A stretch of DNA of 42,850 nucleotides from Pelagibacterales bacterium SAG-MED31 (GTDB lineage Bacteria; Pseudomonadota; Alphaproteobacteria; HIMB59; GCA-002718135): the NCBI GenBank assembly GCA_014653715.1, contig JACWEB010000006.1, positions 1 through 42,850 of the forward strand. The letters run 5' to 3'. The notes beneath the pieces were generated by a model, which did no database searches, had not been told where the DNA came from, and was given only the letters and a program-made list of their open reading frames with translations. The position numbers were made by a program, and so were the translations under genes. Below, one piece after another: positions 21,392-42,850 of this stretch. The stretch's first letter is position 1, and the number at the start of each line of letters is the position of its first letter.

Positions 21392-21397
21392 TTAGAT

Positions 21398-21832: not shown

Positions 21833-21834
21833 AG

Positions 21835-23099: not shown

Positions 23100-23101
23100 T
23101 T

Positions 23102-23749: not shown

Positions 23750-23804
23750 GAATTTAAGCTTATTGATATTATTAACTTATCTGCTATTTAATTCTAGTAA
23801 ATAT

Positions 23805-23891
23805 GCGGCTGTGGCGGAATTGGTATACGCGCAGCGTTGAGGTCGCTGTGGGATTTATCCTGTGGAAGTTCAAGTCTTCTCAGCCGCACCA
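23805..23891 (+). tRNA. tRNA-Leu (anticodon GAG)
   Basis: Acceptor GCGGCTG pairs perfectly with CAGCCGC; discriminator A and encoded CCA; anticodon stem-loop CAGCG-TTGAGGT-CGCTG; long class II variable arm; T-arm containing GTTCAAG. Confidence 0.95.
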
Positions 23892-23925
23892 ACTGCTTAT
23901 TTATAATTGTCGAAATAGAGGAAAA

Positions 23926-25263: not shown

Positions 25264-26204
25264 TGAATAGTAAAATTGCAATTCAGATGGATGATATAAA
25301 CTTAATTGATTATACATTTGATTCATCTTTTATGATTGGTCTTGAAGGTCAAAAAAGAAATTATGAAATATTTTATTATCATCCAAATGATTTATTCATT
25401 AACTCTGGAATAGTTAAGGCTAGGGGATTTTATATAGAGTTGTTTGAACATAATAATAGTTATTTTAAATTTTTATCAGAAAAGATTGAAATTAACTTAG
25501 CAGAATTTAAATTTATTTTTTTAAGACAAGATCCTCCTTTTAATATGCATTATATTACATCTACTTACTTGCTAGATTGTCTTCCTGAAAGTACTATCGT
25601 TGTAAATAATCCTACCGCTGTTCGTAATTGTACAGAAAAAATTTTTCCTTTCAAATTTAAAGAATTTATGCCTCCAACTTTAATTTCACAAAATGTAAAC
25701 GATATTGTAAATTTTTTAAAAACATACAAAGATATCATTACAAAACCATTATATGGAAATGGTGGAGAAGGTATAAATAGAAGTAACAAAGATAAACTTG
25801 AAGGTATTGACTTACAAAGTGAGTATTTAGATATGCCAATGATAGCTCAAAAATATATTCCTGAAATCATTGAGGGAGATCGCAGAATAATTTTCTTTGA
25901 TGGGGATTATGTTGGTTCTGTTGCAAGAATTCCAATAGAGGGAAGTATTAAAGCTAACTTTCATGCTGGTGGAATAGCAAAAAAAACAAATTTAGTATTC
26001 CGTGATCAGGAAATAATCGAAAAAGTAGGAAAAGAATTAAAAGAACTGGATCTTTTTTTTGTTGGTATTGATATTATAGGTAACTTCCTTACTGAAATAA
26101 ATGTTACATCACCAACTGGCATAAAGCAAATCAACAAATTAAATAAAGTCAAACTAGAACATGTATTTTGGGATAAACTTGAAGCAAAATATAAAATAGT
26201 TTAA
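25263..26204 (+). CDS. gshB: Glutathione synthetase
   Basis: IFLRQDPPFNMHYITSTYLLD, NNPTAVRNCTEKIFPFKF, ITKPLYGNGGEGI; TAATG overlap with gshA. Confidence 0.96.
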   Translation: MNSKIAIQMDDINLIDYTFDSSFMIGLEGQKRNYEIFYYHPNDLFINSGIVKARGFYIELFEHNNSYFKFLSEKIEINLAEFKFIFLRQDPPFNMHYITSTYLLDCLPESTIVVNNPTAVRNCTEKIFPFKFKEFMPPTLISQNVNDIVNFLKTYKDIITKPLYGNGGEGINRSNKDKLEGIDLQSEYLDMPMIAQKYIPEIIEGDRRIIFFDGDYVGSVARIPIEGSIKANFHAGGIAKKTNLVFRDQEIIEKVGKELKELDLFFVGIDIIGNFLTEINVTSPTGIKQINKLNKVKLEHVFWDKLEAKYKIV

Positions 26205-26228
26205 AAGGAAACTAGCAAAGGAAAATTT

Positions 26229-26792
26229 ATGAATAATAGTAGAATTCTAATTAACAACTTAAAAATTTTTCAAGGTATCAATCAAAATATTACAAGCGTA
26301 TTACTTATTATTTTTGGTACTTTGTTGCTAACAATATCAGCTAAAGTCCAAGTACCTTTCTGGCCCGTGCCAATGACGATGCAGACATTTGTAGTATTTT
26401 TAATTGGATCTACATATGGTGTTCGTTTATCTTTTTTAACTCTAGTAGCTTATTTAATTGAAGGAGCGTTGGGTTTACCAGTGTTTGCTGCTGGAGGGGG
26501 TATTATTTATTTGACTGGACCTACTGCAGGCTATTTATATGGAATGACAATCGCAGCTGCAGTTATAAGTTACTTTGCTAACATAGGTTATAGCACATCT
26601 TATATAAAATCTTTTATTAGTATTATAATTGGATCAATTATAATTTTTGCTTTGGGTGTTTTATATTTAGGTTCAATAATTGGATATAGCAAAGCGTTAC
26701 AAGCAGGATTATTACCATTTATTCCTAGTGAGTTATTTAAAATAGCACTAGCTGTACTACTAATACCTACTCTTAATAAAATTATAAAATAA
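26229..26792 (+). CDS. bioY: Biotin transporter BioY (ECF S component)
   Basis: VQVPFWPVPMTMQTFVVFLIGSTYG...GALGLPVFAAGGGIIYLTGPTAGYLYG. Confidence 0.94.
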   Translation: MNNSRILINNLKIFQGINQNITSVLLIIFGTLLLTISAKVQVPFWPVPMTMQTFVVFLIGSTYGVRLSFLTLVAYLIEGALGLPVFAAGGGIIYLTGPTAGYLYGMTIAAAVISYFANIGYSTSYIKSFISIIIGSIIIFALGVLYLGSIIGYSKALQAGLLPFIPSELFKIALAVLLIPTLNKIIK

Positions 26793-26798
26793 TTTTAA

Positions 26799-27689
26799 AT
26801 GAAAATAGGAATAGATCTCGGTGGGACGAAGACCGAGGGCATTTTAATTGATGAAGGTGGTAAAGAACTTTCAAGAACAAGAATTAAAACTGAAAAAAAC
26901 TATGATGGAACAATTCAAGGCATCATATCAATAGTTAAAAAGTTTGAAAGTAATTTTGGTAACTCAACATCTGTTGGAATTGGAATGCCAGGTGCAGTTT
27001 CTGCAGACTCAGCTTTAGTCAAGAATGCTAATTCTATTTGGCTGAATGGAAAACCTTTTAGAAAAGATTTAGAGAAAGAACTTGATCGAAAAGTGAATTT
27101 AGAAAATGATGCAAACTGTTTTGCTTTATCAGAAGCAGTTGATGGAGCTGGTAAGGGTCATGCTGTAGTGTTCGGAGTGATAATTGGAACTGGTACAGGA
27201 GGAGGAATATCAATTAACGAAAAAATATTGACAGGAAGAAATAACATAGCTGGCGAATGGGGTCATATAAGTTTACCTAACAGATCTGATGAAGAAAAAA
27301 ATTTTGTCAGTCAGTGTTATTGTCAAAAAAGTGGGTGCATGGAAACTTTTGTTTCTGGCCCAGGTTTTTCTAATTGCTTTAATCTAAAACATAGTACAAA
27401 TTATGACTCTCATGCCATTTTGAAAGAATTTGAACAAAATGAAAAGAGGGCAATTGAAGCCTTGGATAATTATGTCGATCATCTTGCCAGAGGATTGTCT
27501 CTTGTTTGCAATATATTAGACCCAGATATCATTGTACTAGGTGGGGGGATGTCAAATATCTCATATATTTATGAAAATATAAACAGTGTAATAAGAAAAT
27601 ATATTTTTAGCGATTCTTTTCATACGAAGGTTGTTAAAAATATTCATGGTGACTCTGGAGGAGTAAGAGGAGCAGCTTGGCTTTCTTAA
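26799..27689 (+). CDS. ROK-family sugar kinase (fructokinase/N-acetylglucosamine kinase-like)
   Basis: MKIGIDLGGTKTEGILID, GVIIGTGTGGGISI, GEWGHISL, zinc motif CYCQKSGCMETFVSGPG. Confidence 0.9.
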   Translation: MKIGIDLGGTKTEGILIDEGGKELSRTRIKTEKNYDGTIQGIISIVKKFESNFGNSTSVGIGMPGAVSADSALVKNANSIWLNGKPFRKDLEKELDRKVNLENDANCFALSEAVDGAGKGHAVVFGVIIGTGTGGGISINEKILTGRNNIAGEWGHISLPNRSDEEKNFVSQCYCQKSGCMETFVSGPGFSNCFNLKHSTNYDSHAILKEFEQNEKRAIEALDNYVDHLARGLSLVCNILDPDIIVLGGGMSNISYIYENINSVIRKYIFSDSFHTKVVKNIHGDSGGVRGAAWLS

Positions 27690-29137
27690 ATACCAGCCAT
27701 TGAAATATATTTTATATTTAAATAATCATCCAGACCATAACGAGAACCCTCTCTTCCAAGTCCTGATTCTTTAATTCCACCAAAAGGTATTTCGGCTTTT
27801 GTTGTCAATCCTGTGTTTACACCAACCATTCCATATTCAAGTGCTTCTGCTACCCTCCATATTCTACCTATATCCCTTGAGTAAAAATAAGATGCCAAAC
27901 CATAAGGTGTATCATTAGCAAGTTTAATTACTTCTTCATCTGAAGTGAATTTATATAGTGGGGCAACAGGGCCAAAAGTTTCTTCATATGTAATTTTTGC
28001 CTTTGTTGTAACATTTGAAAGAATTGTTGGTTGATAAAAGTTACCACCTAGAGGATGCACATCTCCACCGACTGCAATTTTTGCTCCTTGATTAACAGCA
28101 TCCTTTACCTGATCATGAACTTTCATAAGAGATGGTTGATCAATTAGAGGTCCAGAAACAATACCTTCATCCAAACCATTACCAACTTTTATTTTATTAA
28201 CTTCCTGAATAAATTTATTTAAAAATTCATCATAAACTTTTTCATGTACAAAGATTCTATTTGCACAAATACAAGTCTGTCCAGAATTTCTAAATTTACT
28301 CTGCATAGCACCCGTTACTGCTTCATCAATGTTTGCATCATCAAAAACTACAAAAGGTGCATGACCACCTAATTCCATTGATACTTTTTTCACTGTAGAA
28401 GCGCTTTGTTGTAAAAGAATTTTTCCAACTTCTGTTGATCCTGTAAAAGAAATCTTTCTTACAATAGGATTCTCTGTCAATTCTTTACCGATAGCATTTG
28501 CTGATCCTGTAATTATATTAATTACACCATTAGGAAAGCCAGCCTCTTTCGCCAAAACTCCAAGAGCTAATGCAGAAAAAGGAGTTTGACTAGCTGGTTT
28601 AATTACTACAGTACAACCAACAGCAAGTGCAGGAGCACATTTTCTTGTAATCATTGTACTTGGGAAGTTCCAAGGAGTAATTGCCCCTACAACACCAACA
28701 GGTTGTTTAATTACAACTATTCTTCTGTCAGGCATTGGATCAGAAATGATATCTCCGTAAACTCTTTTTCCTTCTTCTGCATAGAAATCAATATACGTCA
28801 CTCCCATTAAAATTTCACCTTTTGCCTCTGCTAGAGGTTTGCCTTGCTCTACAGTCATGATTTTTGCTAAGTCATCAACATTTTCCTCAATTAACCGTGC
28901 CCATTTTTGAAGTATGACAGATCTTTCCTTTGCAGTTTTATCTCTCCATGAGGGAAAAGCTCTTTGTGCTTCGTTTATCGCTTCACTAGTTTCAGGAGTT
29001 GAGCATTTAGGAACTTTACCAATAATTTCACCGTTTGCAGGATTATTTACTTCAACTTTTTCACCAGAATTGCTATCAATCCAATTACCGCTGATAAAAC
29101 AATTTTCTTTGAAAAGGGCATTATTTTTAAGTTCCAT
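27686..29137 (-). CDS. gabD: NAD(P)-dependent aldehyde dehydrogenase, succinate-semialdehyde dehydrogenase-like
   Basis: 483 aa ALDH: ITPWNFPSTMITRKCAPALAVGCTVVIKPA, ISFTGSTEVGK, MELGGHAPFVVFDDA, NSGQTCICANR. Confidence 0.88.
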   Translation of the reverse strand: MELKNNALFKENCFISGNWIDSNSGEKVEVNNPANGEIIGKVPKCSTPETSEAINEAQRAFPSWRDKTAKERSVILQKWARLIEENVDDLAKIMTVEQGKPLAEAKGEILMGVTYIDFYAEEGKRVYGDIISDPMPDRRIVVIKQPVGVVGAITPWNFPSTMITRKCAPALAVGCTVVIKPASQTPFSALALGVLAKEAGFPNGVINIITGSANAIGKELTENPIVRKISFTGSTEVGKILLQQSASTVKKVSMELGGHAPFVVFDDANIDEAVTGAMQSKFRNSGQTCICANRIFVHEKVYDEFLNKFIQEVNKIKVGNGLDEGIVSGPLIDQPSLMKVHDQVKDAVNQGAKIAVGGDVHPLGGNFYQPTILSNVTTKAKITYEETFGPVAPLYKFTSDEEVIKLANDTPYGLASYFYSRDIGRIWRVAEALEYGMVGVNTGLTTKAEIPFGGIKESGLGREGSRYGLDDYLNIKYISMAGI

Positions 29138-29204: not shown

Positions 29205-30311
29205 ATGACAATAGTTAACTCTTGGAATGAATGGGATCCTTTAAAACATGTAATTGTTGGTACAGTTGAGCACTCGAATATTCCACCAATGGAACCTGCA
29301 TTGGAACCTAAAATTAGTAAAGATAGTGGTATGGCTGGATCTCATGGACCGCGCCCAAGTGAAGCTATAGAAAAAGCAAATATACAACTTGATAATTTTG
29401 TTAAAATTCTTGAGTCACATAATATAAAGGTAGACCGTCCAACACCTATTGATTTTACCAAAGCAATTCAAACACCTGACTGGTCAAATGATGGACAATT
29501 TGGATCTATGCCCCCAAGGGATGTTATCTTAACTGTTGGTAATGAGATGTTAGAAGCTCCAATGTCATATCGTTGTAGATGGTTTGAATATCTTGCTTAC
29601 AGACCTTTACTTGAAAAGTACTATGATGAAGATCCTAATATGCGATGGGAGTCTGCTCCAAAACCAAGATTAACTAGCGCTACGTATAAGTCTAATTATT
29701 TACCTGAAGGAATTACTGAGGAAGAAAGGTATAAAAAAATTGAAGACAGAGATATGATTTTAACAGAACAAGAGCCATTGTTTGATGCAGCTGAAATATT
29801 ACGTTTTGGAAAAGATTTATTTTATCACAATAATTTTACTTCAAATTTAAAAGGATTAAATTGGTTAAAAAGACATTTCCCACATCACCGTGTTCATCAA
29901 GTTAATTTACCAGGGGAGTTAATTCCCACTCATATAGACGCTTGTTTTACACCAATTAAACCTGGTGTGATTATTATAAATCCAAATAGAAAAATTTCTA
30001 ATGAACAAAGAAAAATCTTCGATGATAACAAATGGGAAATTATTGATGCAGCACCATCAGTTCATAATACTCCTCCACCAATGTGCTATTCATCAATTTG
30101 GTTATCTATGAACGTTCTTATTTTAAACCCTACAACTATTTGTGTTGAGGCATCAGAAGAAAAGATGATTAAGCAAATGGAAGACTTTGGTATGACGGTA
30201 GTTCCTGTTCCTTTTAGAGATGTATATGCTTTTGGAGGAAGTCTTCATTGTGCAACAACAGATGTTTATAGGGATGGAGAATGTGAAGACTACTTTCCTA
30301 AACAACTATAA
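29205..30311 (+). CDS. Amidinotransferase, glycine/arginine (GATM)-like
   Basis: NSWNEWDPLKHVIVGTVE; His-containing THIDACFTPIKPGVIIINP; catalytic Cys in FGGSLHCATTDVYR. Confidence 0.88.
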   Translation: MTIVNSWNEWDPLKHVIVGTVEHSNIPPMEPALEPKISKDSGMAGSHGPRPSEAIEKANIQLDNFVKILESHNIKVDRPTPIDFTKAIQTPDWSNDGQFGSMPPRDVILTVGNEMLEAPMSYRCRWFEYLAYRPLLEKYYDEDPNMRWESAPKPRLTSATYKSNYLPEGITEEERYKKIEDRDMILTEQEPLFDAAEILRFGKDLFYHNNFTSNLKGLNWLKRHFPHHRVHQVNLPGELIPTHIDACFTPIKPGVIIINPNRKISNEQRKIFDDNKWEIIDAAPSVHNTPPPMCYSSIWLSMNVLILNPTTICVEASEEKMIKQMEDFGMTVVPVPFRDVYAFGGSLHCATTDVYRDGECEDYFPKQL

Positions 30312-30313
30312 CC

Positions 30314-31066
30314 ATGAGTAGCTTTATACAAAATGATTTAACACCAGATATTATCAAAACTACCAATCCTAAAGTTGGTGTAATTGCTTTATCAACTGAC
30401 TTTACTATAGAGCAAGATTATAGGAGTATTTGTCATCAAATTCCCTTAGACATCTTTGTTAATCGTATACCATTTGAAAATCCTTTAAATCATGAAAATT
30501 ATTTAAAAATGGCTAATCATATCAGTAGTGTTTCTGAGCAGATTTTACCATCTCAACATATAGATATCATTGCATATGGATGTACTTCTGGAACAATTGC
30601 TATTGGTTCAAAAAAAATAAAAGAAGAGATTAATAAAGCAAAGCCAAATGCTAAAGTCACAACACCCATAACGGCAGCTTTAAAAGCTTTTAAACACCTA
30701 GGATTAAAAAATATAGCTGTTCTCACCCCTTATCCAAAAGATGTAAATGTAACCGTTTATAATTATTTGAATGATAATAATATCAATGTTGAATCTTTTA
30801 GTTCTTTTAATTTAGAATATGATTCTGAAATTGCCCAAGTAAGTTTAGATAGTTTGGAGAAAGAAATTACAAAAATAGCTCTTAGTAAAGTTGATGGATT
30901 GTTTGTTTCTTGTACTGCACTTAAAATTGTAGATGTTTTAGATAGAATAGAAAAAAACCAAAATACTATAGTAATATCGAGTAATCAGGCTATTATTTGG
31001 GATTGCTTGAGGTCAGTTGGTATTGACTCAAAAATTGAAGGCTATGGTAAATTACTTGTTAGCTGA
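30314..31066 (+). CDS. eutA: Asp/Glu racemase / maleate isomerase-family protein, EutA-like
   Basis: PKVGVIALSTDFTIEQDYRS; DIIAYGCTSGTIAIG; VDGLFVSCTALKIVDVLDRIE (two Cys); followed by EutB- and EutC-like genes. Confidence 0.72.
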   Translation: MSSFIQNDLTPDIIKTTNPKVGVIALSTDFTIEQDYRSICHQIPLDIFVNRIPFENPLNHENYLKMANHISSVSEQILPSQHIDIIAYGCTSGTIAIGSKKIKEEINKAKPNAKVTTPITAALKAFKHLGLKNIAVLTPYPKDVNVTVYNYLNDNNINVESFSSFNLEYDSEIAQVSLDSLEKEITKIALSKVDGLFVSCTALKIVDVLDRIEKNQNTIVISSNQAIIWDCLRSVGIDSKIEGYGKLLVS

Positions 31067-31103
31067 AATATGAAATTTTTAAACCAAATAAATGTAAATT
31101 ATT

Positions 31104-32054
31104 TTGATTAGTTTAGAAAAAATTAAGCAAGCTCACAAAGCGATATCTCCCTATATTAATAGAACACCTTTGGTATTATCTAATTATTTATCTAAAAATA
31201 GAATTGTTAAATTAAAATTAGAGTCTCTTCAAATTACTAACTCCTTTAAATTACGTGGCGCTACGAATAAATTATTGTCATTAAATAATGAGCAAAAACA
31301 AAAAGGTGTAATTGCCGTATCTACAGGTAATCATGGTAAGGGAGTTGCTTATGCCTCTAGTGTACTGGGAATACATTCAACTATTTACATGTCTTCAATG
31401 GTTCCTCAATATCGCAAAGAAGCAATTGAAGCTTTAGGAGCTAAAGTTGAGATAATTGGTAACAATAGTGATGAGGCAGATTTGTATGCGAAAAACCTAG
31501 CAAAAGAAAAAAACATTACATTGGTGCATCCTTTTGATGATGAAGAGGTAATTGCTGGTCAGGGTACTGTTGGTCTAGAAATGTTAGAAGATTTTCCTGA
31601 AGTTGATACTGTCATTATACCTACATCAGGCGGTGGTTTAATTGGAGGTATTGCTCTAGCTATTAAACTACAAAAACCATCTGTTAAAATAATTGCAGTT
31701 TCTATGGAAAGAGGACCTTCAATGTTTGAGAGTTTAAAAAATGGTAAGCCAACAGATGTTGAAGAATTAGAAACTTTAGCTGATTGTTTGGGAGGTAGTA
31801 TTGGTTTGGATAATCAATATACTTTTAAAATAGCACAGGAGACAATCGATGATTTTGTTCTTGTAAATGAAAATAAAATTGCTGAGGGTATAAAATTTAA
31901 TTTTGTTGAACACAAGCTTGTTACTGAGGGAGCTGCAGCTACTGGAGTTATGGTAGTTAAAGACAATATGTCAAAAAAATTAGGTAAAAACATAATCAGT
32001 TTAATTTGTGGTGGAAATATAGACGCAAATTTATTTAATAAAATAATAGCGTGA
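31104..32054 (+). CDS. eutB: Threonine dehydratase-like PLP enzyme, EutB-like
   Basis: LKLESLQITNSFKLRGATNKL (PLP lysine), VSTGNHGKGVAYAS, PTSGGGLIGGIALAIK; TTG start. Confidence 0.75.
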   Translation: MISLEKIKQAHKAISPYINRTPLVLSNYLSKNRIVKLKLESLQITNSFKLRGATNKLLSLNNEQKQKGVIAVSTGNHGKGVAYASSVLGIHSTIYMSSMVPQYRKEAIEALGAKVEIIGNNSDEADLYAKNLAKEKNITLVHPFDDEEVIAGQGTVGLEMLEDFPEVDTVIIPTSGGGLIGGIALAIKLQKPSVKIIAVSMERGPSMFESLKNGKPTDVEELETLADCLGGSIGLDNQYTFKIAQETIDDFVLVNENKIAEGIKFNFVEHKLVTEGAAATGVMVVKDNMSKKLGKNIISLICGGNIDANLFNKIIA

Positions 32055-33034
32055 CTTTAATTCTTAATTCAACTGAGATTAAGGACTGTGTAAAATTTAA
32101 TGCAAAACTGATTCCTGTAATTGAAGATGCTTTTAAAAGTTTATCACTAGGCAAAACAGTAATGCCTCCAATACTAAGAGTTGATATTGTAAAATATCAT
32201 GGAGAGTCAGATGTTAAAGCTGCATACATAGAGGGCTTAGATAGTTTTGCAGTGAAAGTAGCATCAGGTTTTTTTAATAATCCAAAGTTAGGACTACCTT
32301 CTAGTAATGGTTTAATGATTCTTTTAGACTCACAAACTGGAGTAATAAAATCAGTCTTATTGGATAAAGGTTATTTAACTGATGTAAGAACAGCTATTGC
32401 GGGAGCAATTGCTTCAAAATATTTATCTAACTCAAACTCATCAACAGTTGCAATAGTCGGAACAGGAATACAAGCACGAATGCAGCTCGAGGCACTTACT
32501 TTAGTTAGAGATATTAAAAATGTAAATGTATGGTCACGAGATATAAAGAAAGCTCATGCTTACATTGAAAATGTAGGTAAAAACATTAATCTCAATTTTC
32601 AAGCATTTGATATCATCAACGAAGTTGTTAAAACGGCTGATATATTAATTACAACTACCCCAAGTAAAAAACCTCTCATTGACTTTTCTGCATTACCTAA
32701 GGGAATACACATAACCGCAATGGGCTCAGATGCAGAAGAAAAAAATGAATTAGATCCTAATATAATTAAAAATTGTGATGCTTATGTGCCAGACAGTCAG
32801 GGTCAAACAAGCATCTTAGGCGAGTTAAATCATGCTATTAAAAACAATTTAATCAAAAATGACATGATCTTTAATGACCTAGGAAAAATTATTTTAAATC
32901 CAGAATTAGGGAGAAAAAATACTCACGATATTACCGTAGCAGATTTAACAGGTACAGGTGTTCAAGACACTGCTATAGCTAGTTACGCTTACTCAATTGC
33001 TTTAAATAAAAATCTAGGAAAGAAAGTAGAATAG
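32051..33034 (+). CDS. eutC: Ornithine cyclodeaminase/mu-crystallin-family protein, EutC-like
   Basis: TDVRTAIAGAIASKYLSNSNSSTVAIVGTGIQARMQLEAL; ITAMGSDAEEKNELDPNII; GTG start overlapping the eutB stop. Confidence 0.78.
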   Translation: MTLILNSTEIKDCVKFNAKLIPVIEDAFKSLSLGKTVMPPILRVDIVKYHGESDVKAAYIEGLDSFAVKVASGFFNNPKLGLPSSNGLMILLDSQTGVIKSVLLDKGYLTDVRTAIAGAIASKYLSNSNSSTVAIVGTGIQARMQLEALTLVRDIKNVNVWSRDIKKAHAYIENVGKNINLNFQAFDIINEVVKTADILITTTPSKKPLIDFSALPKGIHITAMGSDAEEKNELDPNIIKNCDAYVPDSQGQTSILGELNHAIKNNLIKNDMIFNDLGKIILNPELGRKNTHDITVADLTGTGVQDTAIASYAYSIALNKNLGKKVE

Positions 33035-33066
33035 GTATAGTCCGTATCTGAAATATTTAAAATTTT

Positions 33067-34509
33067 ATGAATTCAAGTGTAATAGAAAAAACTGCAAATT
33101 ATTTTCGAAGTAAGAATGTTGTACTCCCAACTATAGCTGAGTTGAAAAATCCACATTTAATAAGTGAGGATATTAAAAATAAAGTTTTAAAACTAGATAA
33201 GGATGCAATGGATCCAGTAAATTTATTTAGAGTGCACTGGTTTAACAAAAGAGATCATAGTAAATTTTTAGATGTTCCTGAACATATCGTTTTACCAAGT
33301 GAGTTTACTGGAGTTGATGCAAAAATTATTGTCAATCTTGGTCGTTATTTTCCACTTATTACTGCTCATAAAGTTTTAGCAGCATATGGATGTTTACTTC
33401 CAAGAATTTTAAATGGTACATTTGATTATACGACGCATAAAGCTGTATGGCCATCTACTGGTAATTACTGCAGGGGAGGTGTTGCTATTTCTAAAATATT
33501 AGGTTTTAAAAGTGTGGCTATTCTCCCTGAGGGTATGAGCAAGGAGAGATTTGATTGGCTTGAAAAATGGGTGGAGGATAAAAATGATATTATAAAAACC
33601 ACTGGTACAGAAAGTAACGTAAAAGAAATATATGATGCTTGTAATGAATTAGAAAAAGATAAGAATAATGATATTATCAATCAATTCGATGAATATTATA
33701 ATTATGCAACGCACAGAGCTATTACTGGATCATCTTTTGAAAAATCTTTTTTAAAAGTTAAGGGTGATTCCAATCTTCAAGCTCGGTTTTACGTCTCTGC
33801 TTCTGGCTCAAGTGGCACATTAGCTGCTGGTGATTATTTAAAAGAAAACCTTAATATTAAAATTGCAGTTGTTGAAGCAAATGAATGTCCGACTCTTCTC
33901 TATAATGGGTATGGTGAGCATAATATTCAAGGTATTGGTGATAAACATGTTCCATTAATTCATAATGTGATGAATTCTGATTACGTAGTAGGTGTATCAG
34001 ATGAAGCAACTAATAATCTTAATTTATTATTTAATACGGATGAAGGAAGAGAATATCTAACTAACAGAAGAGGTTTAAATAAAGAGTTTGTTGGGAGACT
34101 TCCAGAATTTGGATTTTCTTCTATCGCAAATATTATTGCTTCTATTAAACTTGCTAAAAAAATGAAATTAACAAAAGATGATGCAATTATTACTGTTGCA
34201 ACAGATGGAGCTGATTTATACGAAACTGAATTAGCAAAAACAAAAAAACAGTTTAGTAAAATTTATGATCAAATAACTTGTGCTGAAATTTTTTCAAAAA
34301 ATTTTGATGCTATTTCAATTGATCATACTTTAGAGTTAAGTCAGATTGATAAAGAGAGAATATTTAACTTGGGCTATTACACATGGGTAGAGCAACAAGG
34401 AACAAGTTTGGAAGAGTTTGAAAATAGAAGAAACCAATCTTTCTGGGATAAGCACTACAAGGATATGATTTCACTTGATGAAAAAATTAAAGAGTTTAAT
34501 TCTCTTTAA
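33067..34509 (+). CDS. Fold-type-II PLP-dependent enzyme of unassigned substrate (cysteine synthase/threonine synthase-like)
   Basis: 480 aa; DYTTHKAVWPSTGNYCRGGVAISKILGFKSVAILPEGMSKERFDWL (probable PLP Lys and phosphate-like STGNY loop); SASGSSGTLAAGDYLKE. Confidence 0.7.
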   Translation: MNSSVIEKTANYFRSKNVVLPTIAELKNPHLISEDIKNKVLKLDKDAMDPVNLFRVHWFNKRDHSKFLDVPEHIVLPSEFTGVDAKIIVNLGRYFPLITAHKVLAAYGCLLPRILNGTFDYTTHKAVWPSTGNYCRGGVAISKILGFKSVAILPEGMSKERFDWLEKWVEDKNDIIKTTGTESNVKEIYDACNELEKDKNNDIINQFDEYYNYATHRAITGSSFEKSFLKVKGDSNLQARFYVSASGSSGTLAAGDYLKENLNIKIAVVEANECPTLLYNGYGEHNIQGIGDKHVPLIHNVMNSDYVVGVSDEATNNLNLLFNTDEGREYLTNRRGLNKEFVGRLPEFGFSSIANIIASIKLAKKMKLTKDDAIITVATDGADLYETELAKTKKQFSKIYDQITCAEIFSKNFDAISIDHTLELSQIDKERIFNLGYYTWVEQQGTSLEEFENRRNQSFWDKHYKDMISLDEKIKEFNSL

Positions 34510-34513
34510 TAAA

Positions 34514-35671
34514 ATGAAAACTAACGGACTGCATAATCAATTAGTTGAATGGAGGCATGATTTACACATGCATCCACAGATAAGTTTTGAAGAAGAATAT
34601 GCTTCAAATAAAGTAGCTAATTTATTAAAAGAATTTGGGATAGAGGTGCATCAAGGAATTGCTAAAACTGGTGTGGTAGGGGTATTAAAAAAAGGAAACA
34701 GTAATAAAAGCATTGGTATAAGAGCAGATATGGATGCATTACCAATCAATGAAATAAATACTTTTTCTTATAAATCTACAATTGAGAATAGAATGCATGC
34801 TTGTGGTCATGATGGACATACAACAATGTTATTAGGTGCAGCAAAATACTTAGCCAAACAAGGCAATTTTGATGGGACTGTATATTTTATTTTTCAACCT
34901 GATGAAGAAAATACTTTGGGTGCTAAGACAATGATTGAGGAAGGTTTATTTACTAAGTTTTCAATTGATGAAGTTTACGGTATGCATAACATTCCAGGGA
35001 TGGAAGCTGGAACATTTGGAACAAGAAAAGGTGGAATTACTACCAGCGAAAATTTATTTGAAATCTCTATAAATGGTAAAGGGGGTCACGCAGCTTTACC
35101 CCATATGAGTAAAGACACGATTACAATAGGTAGTCAGATAATAGTAGCTTTACAAACTATTGTTTCTCGTAAATTAGATCCTGTAGATGCAGGCGTGGTA
35201 TCTGTGACTGAATTTATTACTGATGGAAAAAAAAATGTATTACCTGGTAATGGTTTAATCAAAGGAGATGCTAGAGCATTTAATGAAAAAACTAATACAA
35301 TAATTGAGCAAAGTATGCGTCAACTCGCAAATGGTATTTGTGATTCTTATGGAATTTCTTGTGATGTAAAGTATAAAACAACTTGCCCAATGACTTTTAA
35401 TAAACCGGAACAAGCTGAGGCGGCAACAAGAGCTGCAATTACATTGTTAGGAAACGATAGCTGTAATGGTGATATTGAACCCAGACCTTTTTCAGAAGAT
35501 TTTTCTATCATGTCAGAAAATACCCCAGGGTGTTTTGTATTAATGGGCAATGGAACTAAAGGATCACAAGGAAGGCCTTTGCACTCAGCAGATTATGATT
35601 TTAATGATGAATTATTAGTAAAAGGCTCTTCTTATTGGGTAGAATTAGCAGAACAACAATTGCAAAAATAG
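34514..35671 (+). CDS. M20 (hippurate hydrolase-like) amidohydrolase
   Basis: WRHDLHMHPQISFEE, GIRADMDALPINE, MHACGHDGHTTMLLGAA, FQPDEEN, GKGGHAALPH; start moved from 34475 to ATG 34514, after the upstream stop. Confidence 0.88.
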   Translation: MKTNGLHNQLVEWRHDLHMHPQISFEEEYASNKVANLLKEFGIEVHQGIAKTGVVGVLKKGNSNKSIGIRADMDALPINEINTFSYKSTIENRMHACGHDGHTTMLLGAAKYLAKQGNFDGTVYFIFQPDEENTLGAKTMIEEGLFTKFSIDEVYGMHNIPGMEAGTFGTRKGGITTSENLFEISINGKGGHAALPHMSKDTITIGSQIIVALQTIVSRKLDPVDAGVVSVTEFITDGKKNVLPGNGLIKGDARAFNEKTNTIIEQSMRQLANGICDSYGISCDVKYKTTCPMTFNKPEQAEAATRAAITLLGNDSCNGDIEPRPFSEDFSIMSENTPGCFVLMGNGTKGSQGRPLHSADYDFNDELLVKGSSYWVELAEQQLQK

Positions 35672-35693
35672 TTATTTCTTATGAAAATTCGAG

Positions 35694-36842
35694 ATGTTTA
35701 AAAAAAATCTTGAAAACTTACAAATAACTCTTCAGGAAAATAACATTGATCTAGCTATAATTACTGATGACGACTCACTTTATTATTTTACTGGTTATTA
35801 TGATTTTTTACATATGTCATTTGGACGACCTACTATTTTATTGGTACCAAAAGACTCAGAAACTATCTTGATTACCCCTCTGATTGATGCTCATTTGGTT
35901 AAGAAAAATTGTCCAGTTGATAAAATAGTTACATGGAACGATGGTATTGACAATGAATGGAGAGAATATCTACCAAAATACATAAAAAAAAATTTAGTTA
36001 TAGCAACTGAAAAATTTAAAATTAGTACTTTGGTATTAAATTACATATCTTCTTTATGTGATGAAAAATCACTTAGCAATATTTCACCAATATTAGATTC
36101 TATAAGAATGGTTAAAACAGTGGAAGAATTAAAAATTGCAAGGTCAGCTGGAAAAGTTGCAGAAGCAATGATGCGTGCTGGAAAAGAAGCTATAGGACAT
36201 AATGTTCCTGAATATGAAGTGGCATTAGCAACTTCTCAAGCAGGAACAAGAAAAGCCGCCGAAATATTAAAAAAAGAATTTGAAGAAAGTGATATGTCTC
36301 CTTTAATACATTTTCTGCAGATTATGGCCTCTGGTAAAGATTTGCCAAAAACTCATCACCGAGCTTCAACTAAATTATTAAAAGATGGCGACCCTGTCTT
36401 CCTTTGCTTTTGTGGAATGACAAATTTTCATAAGTTTAAACTTGGTTTTGATAGAACATTTTGGTTAAAAGAAATTAACGATAGATCTCAAATTAAAACT
36501 TATGAAACTGCTGTTCAATCACAAAAAGCAGCCCTGAGTGTTTTAGGCCCTGGTGTAAAAGCTGAAGATGTTCATGCAGCTTATGCAGAAGCTATTCAAA
36601 GTGCAGGTTATCCTTATCCTACATTTAGATGTGGAAGAGCAACAGGTTTTAGTATGCTAGAGGAACCTCAGCTAGTAGCAGGAAATAAAACAATATTAAA
36701 ACCAGGAATGGTATTTGCTGTGGATGGATCTGCTAATGAAGAAAACTTTCGTGCTCAAGTTGGAGATAGTTTTATAATAACTGAAAATGGATATGAGCAA
36801 ATAACTAATTTTTCAAAAAATGTTGAGGATTTAATCATCTAA
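35694..36842 (+). CDS. M24 (pita-bread fold) protein, creatinase/ectoine hydrolase (DoeA)-like
   Basis: SLYYFTGYYDFL N-domain; IRMVKTVEELKIARSAGKVAEAMMRAG linker; GDPVFLCFCGMTNFHKFKLGFDRTFW; LKPGMVFAVDGSANEENFRAQVGDSF. Confidence 0.75.
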   Translation: MFKKNLENLQITLQENNIDLAIITDDDSLYYFTGYYDFLHMSFGRPTILLVPKDSETILITPLIDAHLVKKNCPVDKIVTWNDGIDNEWREYLPKYIKKNLVIATEKFKISTLVLNYISSLCDEKSLSNISPILDSIRMVKTVEELKIARSAGKVAEAMMRAGKEAIGHNVPEYEVALATSQAGTRKAAEILKKEFEESDMSPLIHFLQIMASGKDLPKTHHRASTKLLKDGDPVFLCFCGMTNFHKFKLGFDRTFWLKEINDRSQIKTYETAVQSQKAALSVLGPGVKAEDVHAAYAEAIQSAGYPYPTFRCGRATGFSMLEEPQLVAGNKTILKPGMVFAVDGSANEENFRAQVGDSFIITENGYEQITNFSKNVEDLII

Positions 36843-37864
36843 TGTCAATAATTGAAATTTATAATACTCATTGTTGTGGAGAAATAGGAGATGTCATTGT
36901 TTCAGGTGATATTAAATTAGAGGGTCAGACTATATTTGAACAATCAAATTATTTATTTGAAAATAAAAAACTAAGAAACTTTATATTAAATGAGCCAAGA
37001 GGAGGGGTGTTTAAGCATTGTAATTTGATAGTGCCTCCACTAGATAAAAAAGCTTCTGCAGGTTTTATAATTATGGAGCCTGAAGACAATCCTCCAATGA
37101 GTGGCTCAAATAGTATTTGTGTAGCTACCGTATTATTAGAAAAAAACATTATTAAATCAGTTGAACCTTATACTAATTTTACTCTTGAAGCCCCTGGTGG
37201 TTTAATTTCAATAAAAGCTGAAGTAAGAAACAAACTCACAAAATCAGTTGAAATAGAAAACCTACCTTCTTTTGTCAATTTATTAGATGTTAAACTTAAA
37301 ACCAAAAACTTCGGTGAAATAATCGTTAGTACTGTTTTTGGAGGTGATACTTTTATAATATGTAATGCAAATGATTTTAATTTAGCGATCGAACCCAAGA
37401 ATGCCAAAAAATTTGTCGACATATCAAAAGAAATTATAAAAATTGCAAATCAAGAATTTGGTTTTTTGCATCCAACCATACCGTCTTTAGATTATATTTC
37501 ATTTTGCCAATTCATTGAACCTGTGAAAGTAAATAGTTTTCAACAAAAAGAGGGGTGGAACACAGTCTGCATCAGACCTGGTAAATTAGATAGATCACCA
37601 TGTGGAACTGGAACATCAGCGAGATTGGCATTAATGAAAGAAAAAAATGAAATTGATGTTAATGAAATATTTATATCTAGATCAATAATTGGATCAACAT
37701 TTGAGACAAAGATAAAAGAAGAATTTATTAGCAACGGTAAAAAAATGATTAAGCCTTTAATTAAAGGTTCTGCATTTATCACTGGTAAACAAGAACTTTA
37801 TGTTTCCAAAAATGATCCATTTCCAGAAGGCTACAGACTTAATGATACGTGGCCTGATTTTTAA
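36842..37864 (+). CDS. Proline racemase superfamily protein (4-hydroxyproline epimerase / trans-3-hydroxyproline dehydratase-like), Ser/Cys catalytic pair
   Basis: DVIVSGDI; EPRGGVFKHCNLIVPP; MSGSNSICVATVLLE; GGDTFIICNA; LDRSPCGTGTSARLALM; GSAFITGKQELYV. Confidence 0.88.
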   Translation: MSIIEIYNTHCCGEIGDVIVSGDIKLEGQTIFEQSNYLFENKKLRNFILNEPRGGVFKHCNLIVPPLDKKASAGFIIMEPEDNPPMSGSNSICVATVLLEKNIIKSVEPYTNFTLEAPGGLISIKAEVRNKLTKSVEIENLPSFVNLLDVKLKTKNFGEIIVSTVFGGDTFIICNANDFNLAIEPKNAKKFVDISKEIIKIANQEFGFLHPTIPSLDYISFCQFIEPVKVNSFQQKEGWNTVCIRPGKLDRSPCGTGTSARLALMKEKNEIDVNEIFISRSIIGSTFETKIKEEFISNGKKMIKPLIKGSAFITGKQELYVSKNDPFPEGYRLNDTWPDF

Positions 37865-37870
37865 TTAAAA

Positions 37871-38872
37871 TTATTCTGATAAAGAAGTAATTTTATTTAC
37901 TAATTCAGCATTAATACTTCGAGAGCCAGTGTCTAAACGATTTTTATGTCTTCTCTCTCCAGGGAGTCTTACACCTTCAAGTGATTTCATTTGATCAAAA
38001 AATTTCTCAGCATGATCATTCCAATTTTGACCTGCAATTAATTCTGGAGATAAAGCAATGATAAATTCTCCACCTCTTGCAGGACCTCCATCATTATTAT
38101 CTGCTTCTTTTGCCTCAAAACTAAATAAATCACCCACTAATCCAGCGGCTAATAATTCAATCATCATTGCAATAGCAGACCCCTTGTAATCACCAAAAGT
38201 TAATAAGACGCCACCATTAGCAATTTCAGATGGGTTATCTGTTTTTTCACCATCTTTATTTAAACCTGTACCGTAAGGCACTTTATGACCATCTCTAGCA
38301 GCAACTTGAACTTCACCCATAGCCATTGTGGAAGTTGCCATGTCATAAACAACTGGAGTTTTATTTTTTCTTGGCCATGCAAATGAAATAGGATTTGTTC
38401 CAAACAAAGGTTTTTTTGCACCAGCAGGAGCAACACTTGGTTTATATGCTGTGCATGCGATTCCAATTAATTCGTTTTCTGCTAAAGCTTCAGTCTCATG
38501 CCATAAGGCAGCAAAGTGGTGAGTGTTTGTAATAGTTAAAACACCAACACCATGTTTTTTTGTAACATCTACTAAAGCAGGAATGCCAACACCGATTGCA
38601 GTCGGAGCAAAACCATAATCACCTTCAACTCTTACTGCATTTTGAGTTAAAAAATTATTTTTAGGTCTTGCATTACCTTTTGCTTTTTTGCTTTTTAACG
38701 CTGCAATATATCCAGGAATCCTAAAAAGACCATGCGATACACTCCCATCTCTTTCAGCGTTCATTACAGTATGTGCAACGGCTTTTGCATTGAGTTCATC
38801 ACAACCATTAAATTTAAGTGTTTTTAAGGCTAAGTTATATATTTCTTCAAGAGATAGATCGGTAGTTGTCAT
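37871..38872 (-). CDS. Malate/L-lactate dehydrogenase (Ldh_2) family oxidoreductase
   Basis: NAERDGSVSHGLFRIPGYI; ITNTHHFAALWHETEALAENELIGIACTAYKPSVAPAGAKKPLFGTNPISFAWP; FGDYKGSAIAMMIELLAAGLVGD. Confidence 0.88.
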   Translation of the reverse strand: MTTTDLSLEEIYNLALKTLKFNGCDELNAKAVAHTVMNAERDGSVSHGLFRIPGYIAALKSKKAKGNARPKNNFLTQNAVRVEGDYGFAPTAIGVGIPALVDVTKKHGVGVLTITNTHHFAALWHETEALAENELIGIACTAYKPSVAPAGAKKPLFGTNPISFAWPRKNKTPVVYDMATSTMAMGEVQVAARDGHKVPYGTGLNKDGEKTDNPSEIANGGVLLTFGDYKGSAIAMMIELLAAGLVGDLFSFEAKEADNNDGGPARGGEFIIALSPELIAGQNWNDHAEKFFDQMKSLEGVRLPGERRHKNRLDTGSRSINAELVNKITSLSE

Positions 38873-39021: not shown

Positions 39022-40287
39022 ATGACTCGTTTTAATGCATGGAATGTATTTAAAAATGGTTTTACTGGTCAAAAAAATTGGGATAGACAATGGCGTGATC
39101 CTGAACCAAAAAAAGAATACAACATAATAATTGTTGGTGGAGGCCTTCATGGTTTAGCCACTGCTTATTATCTGGCAAAAAATCATAATAAAAAAAATAT
39201 AGCAGTTTTAGAAAAAGGATGGATTGGCGGAGGAAATGCTGGACGAAATACAACGATAGTACGTTCAAATTACATGATGCCTGGTAACCATGAATTTTAT
39301 GAACACTCATTAAAACTTTGGGAAAATTTAAGTCACGATTTAAATTACAACGTGATGTTTAGTCAAAGAGCGCATGTATCATTATTTCATAGCCCGAGTG
39401 CAAGAGACGGGGCTGCGAGGAGATATAATATAATGCGTCTCCATGGAACTGATGGTGAGTTATGGGATTTGGATACTCTAAAAAAAAATATTCCTCATTT
39501 GAATTATAATAATGCACGTTTTCCAATTTTAGGAGCAGCAGTTCAAAAAAGAGCTGGCAATGCAAGACATGACTCTACAGTATGGGGATTTGCAAGGGCG
39601 GCAGATAGTTTAGGTGTAGATATTTTACAAAATTGTGAAGTGACAGGAGTAAAACGATCACAAAATAATATTGAAAGTATTGAGACTTCAAGAGGAACAA
39701 TGAAAGCTAAGAAAGTAGGTTTTGCTGTGGCAGGACATACTTCTCTTTTATGGCAAATGGCTGGACTTGGTAACTTACCAATTGAGTCTCATAAACTTCA
39801 AGCTTTTGTTACTGAAGCTATTAAGCCTCTGTTGGATCAAGTAGTTGTTTACGGTGTGGGAGGTGCACATTTTTATATTTCACAATCGGATAAGGGAAGT
39901 ATGGTTTTTGGTGGTGATTTAGATTGGTATAAATCCTATGCTCAAAGAGGGAATCTACCTATGGTTCAGGATTCTGCAGAAGCTGCAATGGCTATTATGC
40001 CTTGTTTAGGAAGAATAAGACTACTTCGACACTGGGCTGGAGTTATGGATATGTCAATGGATGGTTCATTTTTCATATGTAAAACTCCTCTATCCAATTT
40101 ATATCTCAATGCTGGCTGGAATTATGGAGGTTTCAAAGCAAGTCCTGCTTCAGGTTGGTATTTTGCAGATCTGATTGCTAATGAACAGCCTCATAAAAAT
40201 GTTCAAAATCATAATCTAGAGAGATTTGAACAAGGAATTAATATTGACGAGCGTGGTGCTGGTCCAGATCCGAAGTTGCACGGTTGA
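39022..40287 (+). CDS. soxB: Sarcosine oxidase subunit beta (FAD oxidoreductase)
   Basis: YNIIIVGGGLHGLATAYYLAKNH...AGRNTTIVRSNYMMPGNHEFYEHSLKLWE; followed by soxD and soxA. Confidence 0.92.
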   Translation: MTRFNAWNVFKNGFTGQKNWDRQWRDPEPKKEYNIIIVGGGLHGLATAYYLAKNHNKKNIAVLEKGWIGGGNAGRNTTIVRSNYMMPGNHEFYEHSLKLWENLSHDLNYNVMFSQRAHVSLFHSPSARDGAARRYNIMRLHGTDGELWDLDTLKKNIPHLNYNNARFPILGAAVQKRAGNARHDSTVWGFARAADSLGVDILQNCEVTGVKRSQNNIESIETSRGTMKAKKVGFAVAGHTSLLWQMAGLGNLPIESHKLQAFVTEAIKPLLDQVVVYGVGGAHFYISQSDKGSMVFGGDLDWYKSYAQRGNLPMVQDSAEAAMAIMPCLGRIRLLRHWAGVMDMSMDGSFFICKTPLSNLYLNAGWNYGGFKASPASGWYFADLIANEQPHKNVQNHNLERFEQGINIDERGAGPDPKLHG

Positions 40288-40288
40288 T

Positions 40289-40573
40289 ATGATAAGAATT
40301 AAATGTCCATATTGTGGTGAAAGAGATCATAGTGAGTTCACTTATGGGGGTGATGCCTCTGTAGAGTATCCAGTACTTGATGCTTCTGTGTCAGAGTGGA
40401 CAAAGGCTATTTTCTTTCGTGAAAACATAAGAGGTATTCAAAAAGAAACTTGGCACCATACAAATGGATGTAGACTTTGGTTAGAAGTAGAGAGATCTAC
40501 AATTACCCATGAAATTAAAAGTGTTAAAGCTTGTCATCCACAAATTGATAAAATTACAAAAAATAAATCATGA
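40289..40573 (+). CDS. soxD: Sarcosine oxidase subunit delta
   Basis: MIRIKCPYCGERDHSEFTYGGDASVEYP...EWTKAIFFRENIRGIQKETWHHTNGCRLW; ATG at 40289 preferred over listed ORF start 40226 (overlaps soxB). Confidence 0.93.
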   Translation: MIRIKCPYCGERDHSEFTYGGDASVEYPVLDASVSEWTKAIFFRENIRGIQKETWHHTNGCRLWLEVERSTITHEIKSVKACHPQIDKITKNKS

Positions 40574-42850
40574 CATCTTTAAGAAAAAAAAATTATGGTA
40601 AAATTAATAGAGATAAACCTATTCTATTTACTTGGGATAATAAAGAGTATTCCGGTTATGAGGGTGACTCTTTAGCTTCTGCACTTTTAGCTAATGATAT
40701 CAGAATAGTTGGTAGAAGTTTTAAATATCATCGTCCACGCGGTATCATGTCTTGTGGAGTTGAAGAATCAGGTGCTCTTGTAACTATTGGATCTGGAAGT
40801 AAAAGAGATCCGAATATTCGCGCAACTACACAAGAGCTTTACTCAGGATTAAATGCATCGGGACAAAATGCTTTCCCAAGTGTAAATTTTGATTTTGGAG
40901 GTATAAATAATTATTTAGGTCGTTTTTTTGCTGCAGGTTTTTATTACAAAACTTTTATGGGTTTACCTCCCTTTGAATGGGGGAAGGGTACTGGAATCTG
41001 GATGGTTTTTGAAAAAATTATTCGAAAAGCTGCAGGGATGGGTAAAGCTTCAAGAGAACCTGACCCAGATAGTTATGAGCATGCTAATGATTTTTGTGAT
41101 GTAATTGTTGTTGGATCTGGTCCTGCTGGTGTTGCTGCAGCTGAAGAAGCTGCTAACAATAATTTGGATGTTATTTTAATCGAACAAGACTCATTGCTTG
41201 GAGGAAACAACTTATCTGAAAAAGAATTTGACCAAAGTCTTTTACAAAATCAATTAGAGAGTAATGGTGTAAAAGTAATGTCTAGGACAACAGCATTTGG
41301 TGTTTATGATAATACTGTAGTTGGAGCATTAGAAAGAGTGACAGATCATATATCTAGTACAAATAATTACTTGCCACGTCAACGTTTTAGAACAATTAGA
41401 GCAAAGCATATTATTTTAGCAAGTGGAGCTCTAGAGCGACATATTGCTTTTAACAATAATGATATTCCAGGCGTGATGACAGCAAATGCTTCAAGGCATT
41501 ATTTGAATAGATATGGAGTTTTAACTGGAAAAAATATTGTTATTACAACAAACAATGATTCTGTTTATCAAACAGCTATTGAACTGTATGAAGCTGGTTC
41601 AAAAGTCACTGTTTTAGATTCAAGAAAAGATATAAATATCGACTTACCTAAAGAGATAGAACTTCATTTAGAAACTGTACCTTATAGTATTAATGGTAGT
41701 AAAAAAATTGAGAGTCTAGATGTTTGTAAGGCTTCAGATAAAAAAAATAAAAATACAATTATTTGTGATCAGGTTCTGGTTTCTGGCGGTTGGTCACCAA
41801 TAGTTCACTTAGTTTCACACCGAGGAATAAAACCAGTTTGGAATGAAGAAAATCTCTGTTTTGTTCCTGGAGATATTAAAGAAAATATTACAGTTGTAGG
41901 TTCTGCAAAAGGTATATGGAATAATAAAGATTGTATAAATTCTGGTATTGTTGGAGCAAATGAGGCAATGAACGCTCTTGGTATACATCAAAAAGAAATT
42001 TCTTTTCCTTTAGTTGGTGGTTGGTCAAATCCTATAGATGCTCTTTATGAAGTTAAATCAAATAAATTTCCATCTAAGAGTTTTATTGATTTCCAGCATG
42101 ATGTTACAGCTGAAGATGTAAGGCTGGCTCATAGAGAGGGTTTTGTTTCTGTTGAACATTTAAAACGATATACAACTTTAGGCATGGCTAATGATCAAGG
42201 AAAAATGGGCAACATAATTGGCCTATCATTGATGGCTGAACAACTAGATAAAACTATACCAGAGGTTGGGACTACCGTTTTTCGACCACCGTATACTCCG
42301 GTACCAATAGGTGCCTTAACTGGTAGAAATGTTGATAAACATTTTAGACCGTTAAGAGTTACACCAATGCATCAATGGAATATTGATCATGGAGCAAAAA
42401 TGATTGATGTTGGTTTGTACCAACGACCTTGGTATTATCCAAAAAGTAATGAAACATTAAGTGACTCCTACATAAGAGAAACTACCATTGTTAGAAAGAC
42501 AGTTGGTATTTGCGATGTAACGTCGTTGGGTAAAATTTCTATTCAAGGACCTGATGCAACTGAACTTGTAAATCGTATATATACAAACCCATTTGCAAAG
42601 CTTCCTATAGGTAAAGCGCGTTATGGTATTATGCTAAGAGATGATGGCATCGTAATGGATGATGGCACTTCATGGAGATTAGCGGAGAATGAATATTTTA
42701 TGACAACTTCAACTGCTGCTGCAGCTAAAGTAATGTCATGGTTAGAAGAGTTATTGCAAACAAGGTGGATAGATCTCAAGGTGAATGTAACAAGTGTTTC
42801 AGAACAATGGGCGGGGGCAGCAATTGCAGGACCTAAGTCAAGAGATGTAT
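40570..42850 (+). CDS. soxA: Sarcosine oxidase subunit alpha (truncated at window end)
   Basis: Not in ORF track because it runs off the end. MTSLRKKNYGKINRDKPILFTWDNKEYSGYEGDSLASALLAND...SFKYHRPRGIMSCGVEESGALV; DVIVVGSGPAGVAAAEEA; C-terminal GcvT-like domain begins; ATGA overlap with soxD. Confidence 0.93.
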   Translation, partial: MTSLRKKNYGKINRDKPILFTWDNKEYSGYEGDSLASALLANDIRIVGRSFKYHRPRGIMSCGVEESGALVTIGSGSKRDPNIRATTQELYSGLNASGQNAFPSVNFDFGGINNYLGRFFAAGFYYKTFMGLPPFEWGKGTGIWMVFEKIIRKAAGMGKASREPDPDSYEHANDFCDVIVVGSGPAGVAAAEEAANNNLDVILIEQDSLLGGNNLSEKEFDQSLLQNQLESNGVKVMSRTTAFGVYDNTVVGALERVTDHISSTNNYLPRQRFRTIRAKHIILASGALERHIAFNNNDIPGVMTANASRHYLNRYGVLTGKNIVITTNNDSVYQTAIELYEAGSKVTVLDSRKDINIDLPKEIELHLETVPYSINGSKKIESLDVCKASDKKNKNTIICDQVLVSGGWSPIVHLVSHRGIKPVWNEENLCFVPGDIKENITVVGSAKGIWNNKDCINSGIVGANEAMNALGIHQKEISFPLVGGWSNPIDALYEVKSNKFPSKSFIDFQHDVTAEDVRLAHREGFVSVEHLKRYTTLGMANDQGKMGNIIGLSLMAEQLDKTIPEVGTTVFRPPYTPVPIGALTGRNVDKHFRPLRVTPMHQWNIDHGAKMIDVGLYQRPWYYPKSNETLSDSYIRETTIVRKTVGICDVTSLGKISIQGPDATELVNRIYTNPFAKLPIGKARYGIMLRDDGIVMDDGTSWRLAENEYFMTTSTAAAAKVMSWLEELLQTRWIDLKVNVTSVSEQWAGAAIAGPKSRDV

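Follow-up and report, generated by a model that had tools for sequence, protein, structure and literature searches.

What does the mixed run of catabolic genes on contig JACWEB010000006.1 of Pelagibacterales bacterium SAG-MED31 break down, and does it follow a known route? The stretch analysed here (42,850 nucleotides; hereafter the window) carries, at 29205–38872, an amidinotransferase, EutA-, EutB- and EutC-like proteins, a second fold-II pyridoxal 5′-phosphate (PLP) enzyme termed PLP2, M20 and M24 proteins, a proline racemase-like protein and an Ldh_2-family dehydrogenase, for which an earlier note had proposed either hydroxyectoine-like or guanidino/imino acid breakdown. The locus is a variant ectoine-class catabolic cluster with a real, unexplained second half, its candidate substrates being read from sequence, and our best reading is a variant ectoine-class operon that would also handle an N-methyl or guanidino group. 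Specifically, we tentatively favour, at rather less than even confidence, one co-transcribed catabolic operon for ectoine-class, nitrogen-rich compatible solutes that combines two recruited modules. Comparison with described pathways suggests that none of them fully matches its route.

All of the genes named above are present within 29205–38872, as first described, each as a full-length open reading frame with a clear family match; that extent is too short, and the unit spans gabD (from 27686) and runs past the window end to take in soxBDAG and EutD. Eight plus-strand genes, from the amidinotransferase to the proline racemase-like gene, are separated by gaps of −4 to +37 bp (with the M20 start set at ATG 34514), forming a block spaced like a single operon whose co-transcription is predicted. 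The succinate-semialdehyde-type aldehyde dehydrogenase gene gabD (27686..29137, minus strand; TIGR01780 718 bits, above its cut-off) diverges from the operon and is separated from the amidinotransferase by 67 bp, while the Ldh_2/MLD2-family gene (37871..38872, minus strand; PF02615 291 bits) lies 149 bp from soxB. The tight spacing, together with the recurrence of the same order in about a dozen genus loci, places this grouping far beyond chance. The operon order is found again in single-cell and metagenome records (L058–L068) and in G001, G020 and G220, with most genes 57–97% identical, and throughout the genus the core order EutB-EutC-PLP2-M20-M24-ProRac-Sox is constant and the gabD position is kept. 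A PLP2 probe finds matches in 31 of 61 genomes, of which 30 are strong and all lie in the genus, the window's own genome included; the sister family (24 genomes) yields a single weak, CysK-like match (E 5.6e-6). Chance adjacency, foreseen earlier in the form of neighbours not conserved in other genomes, is ruled out by this genus-wide gene order. The genomes are 54–96% complete, and failure to find a gene elsewhere in one of them carries little weight.

By sequence likeness, EutA, EutB, EutC, EutD and gabD resemble hydroxyectoine genes. The EutA-like protein (30314..31066), a member of the Asp/Glu racemase superfamily, is 37% identical to Leisingera EutA and carries two active-site-type cysteines at positions 90 and 200, and gabD shares 48% identity with the Ssd protein encoded in the hydroxyectoine cluster of Leisingera. 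The EutB-like β-hydroxy-amino-acid dehydratase (31104..32054; fold-II PLP) is 42–48% identical to annotated Eut proteins. In a maximum-likelihood tree, the phylogenetic placement that had been proposed for this protein, the genus EutB is sister to 21 EutB-like proteins (support 90/78) and threonine dehydratases are set apart from the EutB clade at 100/99, a topology suggestive of an EutB outside the canonical clade. The EutC-like imine reductase/cyclodeaminase of the ornithine cyclodeaminase (OCD) family (32051..33034) is 45–51% identical to annotated EutC and scores above the cut-off of NF006141 (444 against 408 bits) and below that of TIGR02992 (417 against 471); these identities and hidden Markov model scores support a probable EutC assignment. 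Growth of R. pomeroyi on 5-hydroxyectoine requires EutABC, whose reactions are uncertain and whose exact activities are still called unknown, and hydroxy-diaminobutyrate is rapidly converted to diaminobutyrate (PMC8739950).

Other canonical parts are harder to place. Of ten genus genomes, all incomplete, eight lack DoeB/EutE and two have weak partial matches to it (32–34%); ectoine-type clusters without eutE are known from Bacillota and other phyla (PMC13188858). Class III aminotransferases with only 33–38% identity to Atf (DoeD) occur in the genomes, the window's genome carries its best Atf-like gene within a fatty-acid/carnitine-like cluster (L186), and neither asnC nor enuR is seen in the operon. 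The picture is therefore not that of a fully canonical set with transporter, DoeD and DoeC nearby, since EutB appears to fall outside the canonical clade and neither DoeB nor a clear DoeD was found.

The window ends inside soxA (40570..42849, plus strand), and contig C18 of the same genome starts with the rest of soxA (its last 224 residues), followed by soxG and an EutD-like M24 gene. Because the window is cut within soxA and relatives show the same soxA-soxG-EutD order unbroken (for example L189 and L190), C18 very probably continues the window directly. The C18 EutD-like protein aligns at 379 bits to PDB 6TWK, an ectoine hydrolase of known structure, and has Glu in the column of Glu255, presumably the nucleophile of ectoine hydrolase EutD. 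A search of 51 relatives found an EutD-like gene in 11, every one a member of the genus and the window's own genome (C18) among them. The original match of EutA-EutB-EutC order plus M24 to hydroxyectoine utilisation holds for the EutABC order but fails for the window M24, which was rejected as EutD/DoeA (57 bits against a cut-off of 613; 18–20% identity), and the EutD orthologue lies just beyond the window. The reported lack of an ectoine transporter is true of the window, but one relative (L058) has BisC and EhuABCD inserted between eutC and PLP2, inside the same operon, with EhuB at 290 bits (cut-off 191; 273 bits to S. meliloti EhuB 2Q88) and EhuA at 388 (cut-off 345). Downstream of EutD, L185:2454-8504 encodes a DUF3726 protein and a 569-residue protein that matches no Pfam family, then an M19 dipeptidase, an EamA transporter and a TOBE-type ABC transporter; this ABC transporter may be the uptake system. 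A BisC-type molybdopterin S/N-oxide reductase adjoins PLP2, Ehu or eutB in distant genomes (L058:4592-6886, L187:17963-19900, L073:11418-13754, L079:11567-13858) and possibly takes part in the pathway.

The M20, M24 and SoxB proteins, judged by their relatives, come from a second module that plasmids of Roseovarius and Aminobacter carry next to Ehu-type transporter genes. Specifically, M24 (35694..36842) is 59–60% and the M20 amidohydrolase/deacylase (34514..35671; TIGR01891 316 bits, above its cut-off; 317 bits to DoeB2, cut-off 550) is 49–51% identical to the counterparts in those clusters, while SoxB, which belongs to a special subfamily of sarcosine oxidase beta subunits (39022..40287, plus strand; TIGR01373 592 bits, cut-off 529), is 75–76% identical to their M24-adjacent SoxB. 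Every other SoxB is less similar: the best in 12 genomes outside the genus reaches at most 61%, those of the sister family 55–57%, and the genus's own second SoxB (G220) 50%. From the likeness of all three proteins to plasmid-linked ones and the lower identity of every other SoxB, it follows that M24 and the operon SoxB are probably a linked functional pair, and the 50% of the second SoxB against 75–76% for the M24-linked one makes soxBDAG, whose order is present and completed on C18, unlikely as an unrelated housekeeping neighbour. The Eut-type genes together with the separately sourced M20, M24 and SoxB make the operon a hybrid.

The active site of M24 sets it apart from both of its better-known relatives. 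It shares the FGR motif and a catalytic-type His with creatinase 1CHM, its nearest PDB sequence. Among the creatinase residues, which we take to be Phe62, Arg64, His232, Glu262, His324, Arg335, Glu358 and His376, the equivalents of the first three are kept; Glu262, His324, Arg335 and Glu358 correspond to Asp, Arg, a gap and Asp, and the last position is not His. The metal-ligand positions of the fold (Asp, Asp, His, Glu, Glu) are occupied by Cys238, Asp253, Arg315, Asp344 and Gly, and a metallopeptidase function was rejected because the metal ligands are lost. Cys238, Cys240, Asp253, Arg315 and Asp344 are invariant in 18 M24 homologues (38–69% identity), and a joint alignment places Cys238, the candidate nucleophile of this pita-bread hydrolase, in the column of EutD Glu255 and the first metal Asp. 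By these alignments, M24 is neither an EutD nor a canonical creatinase. A wider M24 family (38–42% identical to the window protein; L143–L151, L156–L161, L174) shares its invariant CFC motif and, in other Proteobacteria, lies next to genes of nitrilase-, amidase- and racemase-like type.

PLP2 (33067..34509; 480 residues) is the second distinctive enzyme. Its AlphaFold2 model (mean predicted local distance difference test score 93) is best matched in Foldseek by cysteine synthases, β-cyanoalanine synthase and cystathionine β-synthase (template modelling score ~0.8 by target), with N- and C-terminal extensions and a candidate Schiff-base residue, Lys102, that is invariant in 49 homologues. The CysK fold carries out elimination or replacement at the β carbon, and the modelled PLP2 would be expected to do one or the other. 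PLP2, M20, M24 and EutA-like genes also cluster in distant alphaproteobacteria (L073, L080, L153), and more than 580 encoded PLP2 relatives, among the matches listed, are spread over many phyla, often with other neighbours. This CysK-like family of 480–500 residues is widespread and without a curated name (L057–L136); a second PLP protein stands beside PLP2 in 26 of 84 loci, and the annotated PLP2 neighbours on two plasmids gave no clear functional lead. In some loci (L085) the neighbours are an SsnA-like aminohydrolase, a carbamoyltransferase and a carbamate kinase, a likeness to the reductive urate pathway (PMC12507026) that is suggestive at most, as that paper names no PLP2-type protein. 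In a Rhodobacteraceae genome, urease genes directly adjoin a PLP2-M20-DAPAL-Ehu locus (L073:13817-17250; DAPAL, diaminopropionate ammonia-lyase), which would fit urea release.

The amidinotransferase (29205..30311) finds no match in Pfam or NCBIfam; a full-length alignment to human L-arginine:glycine amidinotransferase (AGAT/GATM family; 1JDX/1JDW, 249 bits) places Cys349, His243, Asp245 and Asp194 at catalytic positions, and the catalytic Cys, His and Asp as well as the donor-site residues of that family are present. The proline racemase superfamily protein (36842..37864) has 359 bits to PDB 4K8L and 330 to the trans-3-hydroxyproline dehydratase (t3HypD) 4K7G, scores 424/550 bits and carries a Ser87/Cys254 pair; in this branch, the t3HypD whose structure is solved has Ser/Thr, and OCD and MLD2 (Ldh_2 family) reductases are known partners (PMC4113996). 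Ldh_2 is confined to the window's subclade and absent at that place in L059–L068 and L054. Upstream, at 20369–27689, lie rpoA, pseudouridine synthase, lipoate ligase-type, GCS2, glutathione synthetase, BioY and ROK genes, and the GCS2-gshB-BioY-ROK flank is likewise conserved across the genus.

Together, these assignments would permit the following scheme. The EutD-like hydrolase would open a cyclic amidine to an N-acyl diamino acid, from which M20, substituting for DoeB, would take off the acyl group. EutA would epimerise, EutB would dehydrate the 3-hydroxy-amino acid to an imine and EutC would reduce that imine, a net conversion of hydroxy-diaminobutyrate to diaminobutyrate with a logic as in BhcB/BhcD. 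PLP2 might then eliminate ammonia, filling in for the missing transaminase DoeD, with GabD oxidising an aldehyde. In the second module, the Cys-type M24 may cut a guanidino or amidine C–N bond via a covalent thio-intermediate and pass an N-methylated amino acid to SoxBDAG for demethylation, while the amidinotransferase could shuttle amidino groups between an acceptor (ornithine or glycine, for example) and the substrate. The boldest form of this scheme is an undescribed pathway for an N-methylated or guanidino ectoine-like solute, in which a pita-bread hydrolase of a new type, metal-free and with Cys as its nucleophile, would supply a dedicated SoxBDAG with an N-methyl amino acid, and a CysK-like ammonia-lyase would stand in for the diaminobutyrate transaminase; we regard this form as doubtful.

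Several observations weigh against the favoured operon for ectoine-class solutes. The EutA-like protein (TIGR02990, 204 bits; cut-off 318), EutB (PRK07476, 385 bits, and a second score of 355, both against 413) and the EutD of a relative (TIGR02993, 462 bits; cut-off 613) all fall below curated equivalog cut-offs. Some genus members (L068) have no EutD following soxG, EhuB occurs in only one of 28 genus genomes, and this patchiness implies that ectoine is perhaps not the common substrate. One relative (G004) has neither amidinotransferase nor EutA at this place (L187), two DoeA-like M24 proteins occupying their positions. In addition, no enzyme activity is on record for PLP2 or this M24 family, the scheme leaves the role of the proline racemase-like protein unexplained, and the incompleteness of most genomes weakens inferences from missing genes.

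A simpler account, which we consider unlikely, is an ordinary but divergent ectoine/hydroxyectoine pathway in which EutABC, EutD, M20 (as DoeB2), GabD and a transaminase from elsewhere do the work, whereas the amidinotransferase, M24, SoxBDAG and proline racemase-like protein would ride along as unrelated passengers. All Eut genes and an Ssd-like gabD are indeed present, EhuABCD occurs in one relative, class III aminotransferases at 33–38% to Atf exist in the genomes, and plasmid pNGR234a is annotated with M20 instead of DoeB beside eutBC and Ehu; yet the supposed passengers are mixed in among the other genes of one operon and retained genus-wide, EutB appears to sit outside the canonical clade, DoeB was not found in ten genus genomes beyond the two weak partial matches, and the best Atf-like gene belongs to a fatty-acid/carnitine-like cluster. 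As a pathway with unusual additions, the hydroxyectoine-like breakdown first proposed is borne out by the Eut likeness, the separation of EutB from threonine dehydratases (100/99), the EutD-like gene and the EhuABCD of one relative.

Equally improbable is a composite island, in which independent short pathways (for hydroxyectoine, for an N-methyl amino acid or creatine, and for 3- or 4-hydroxyproline) would be united under one promoter in a streamlined genome and share regulation, not a substrate. The differing phylogenetic sources of the gene groups would fit such an arrangement, as would their variation as groups (in G004 the amidinotransferase and EutA are replaced, Ldh2 is limited to a single subclade, EutD is distributed patchily, and one to two genomes have Ehu and BisC) and the known hydroxyproline logic of a proline racemase-like protein with OCD/MLD2 (PMC4113996). 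Against it, the core order from EutB to Sox is constant in the genus, and PLP2, M20, M24 and EutA-like genes also occur together in the distant L073, L080 and L153, which is unlikely for unrelated pathways.

Least likely of the three is creatine or guanidinoacetate catabolism, in which M24, as a creatinase analogue, would release urea and sarcosine, SoxBDAG would yield glycine, the amidinotransferase would exchange amidino groups, and EutABC and M20 would handle side products. The linkage of M24 and this SoxB in three genera, the kinship of M24 to 1CHM with its FGR motif and catalytic-type His, the urease genes beside the related PLP2 locus L073 and a published annotation according to which Ca. 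Indicimonas would use creatine and sarcosine (PMC11366302) all favour this route, but five of the creatinase positions are not kept, the associated transporters are Ehu-type, and EutABC, PLP2, M20 and EutD would not be needed. Guanidino/imino acid breakdown as originally suggested has partial support, from the linked M24-SoxB pair, but M24 is without most creatinase active-site residues, and the proline racemase-like protein has Ser/Cys in place of Ser/Thr. BMAA (β-N-methylamino-L-alanine), opines and 1-methylhydantoin were dropped as substrates, as no evidence supports them.

The uncultured host appears to belong to the abundant AEGEAN-169/HIMB59-like open-ocean group, and its genus is most likely AEGEAN-169 subclade II. 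This group is reported to make up as much as 6% of South Pacific Gyre cells, and for its member Ca. Indicimonas the use of creatine, urea and sarcosine has been predicted (PMC11366302). The creatine diet was predicted from single-gene annotation, which may rest on this operon; if it does, the prediction may need revision. The genus also offers a compact natural variant for studying EutABC, and the M24 and PLP2 families provide concrete uncharacterised enzymes.

The operon for ectoine-class solutes favoured here resembles the known eutABC cluster (L169) in its eutA-eutB-eutC order, EutD-type hydrolase and Ssd-like aldehyde dehydrogenase, and in one relative in Ehu; unlike that cluster, it has an EutB of a sister clade, DoeB was not found, no clear DoeD/Atf is present and asnC/enuR were not seen, while the amidinotransferase, PLP2, Cys-type M24, proline racemase-like protein and SoxBDAG are additions. 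With t3HypD/4HypE systems and their OCD or MLD2 reductases (PMC4113996) it has in common the protein family and neighbour types, differing in Ser/Cys instead of Ser/Thr and in an Ldh_2 restricted to the window's subclade. Like the creatinase and sarcosine oxidase route, it places a metal-free pita-bread hydrolase with FGR motif and His beside sarcosine oxidase, whereas most active-site residues are replaced and Cys238/Cys240 are invariant. The pNGR234a cluster ehuBCDA-M20-eutB-eutC-M24-M24 (L164) likewise has M20 adjoining eutBC, with Ehu and M24 proteins, but its M20 is 27% and its M24s are 21–23% identical to those of the window, and the annotated stretch is without PLP2, Sox and amidinotransferase. 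Finally, the M20-DAPAL-EhuBCDA-M24-EutA-like-soxBDAG clusters on the Roseovarius pelagicus and Aminobacter sp. SR38 plasmids (L167, L168) have diaminopropionate ammonia-lyase instead of EutBC, and list neither amidinotransferase nor proline racemase-like protein, but link M24, SoxB and M20 just as the operon does.

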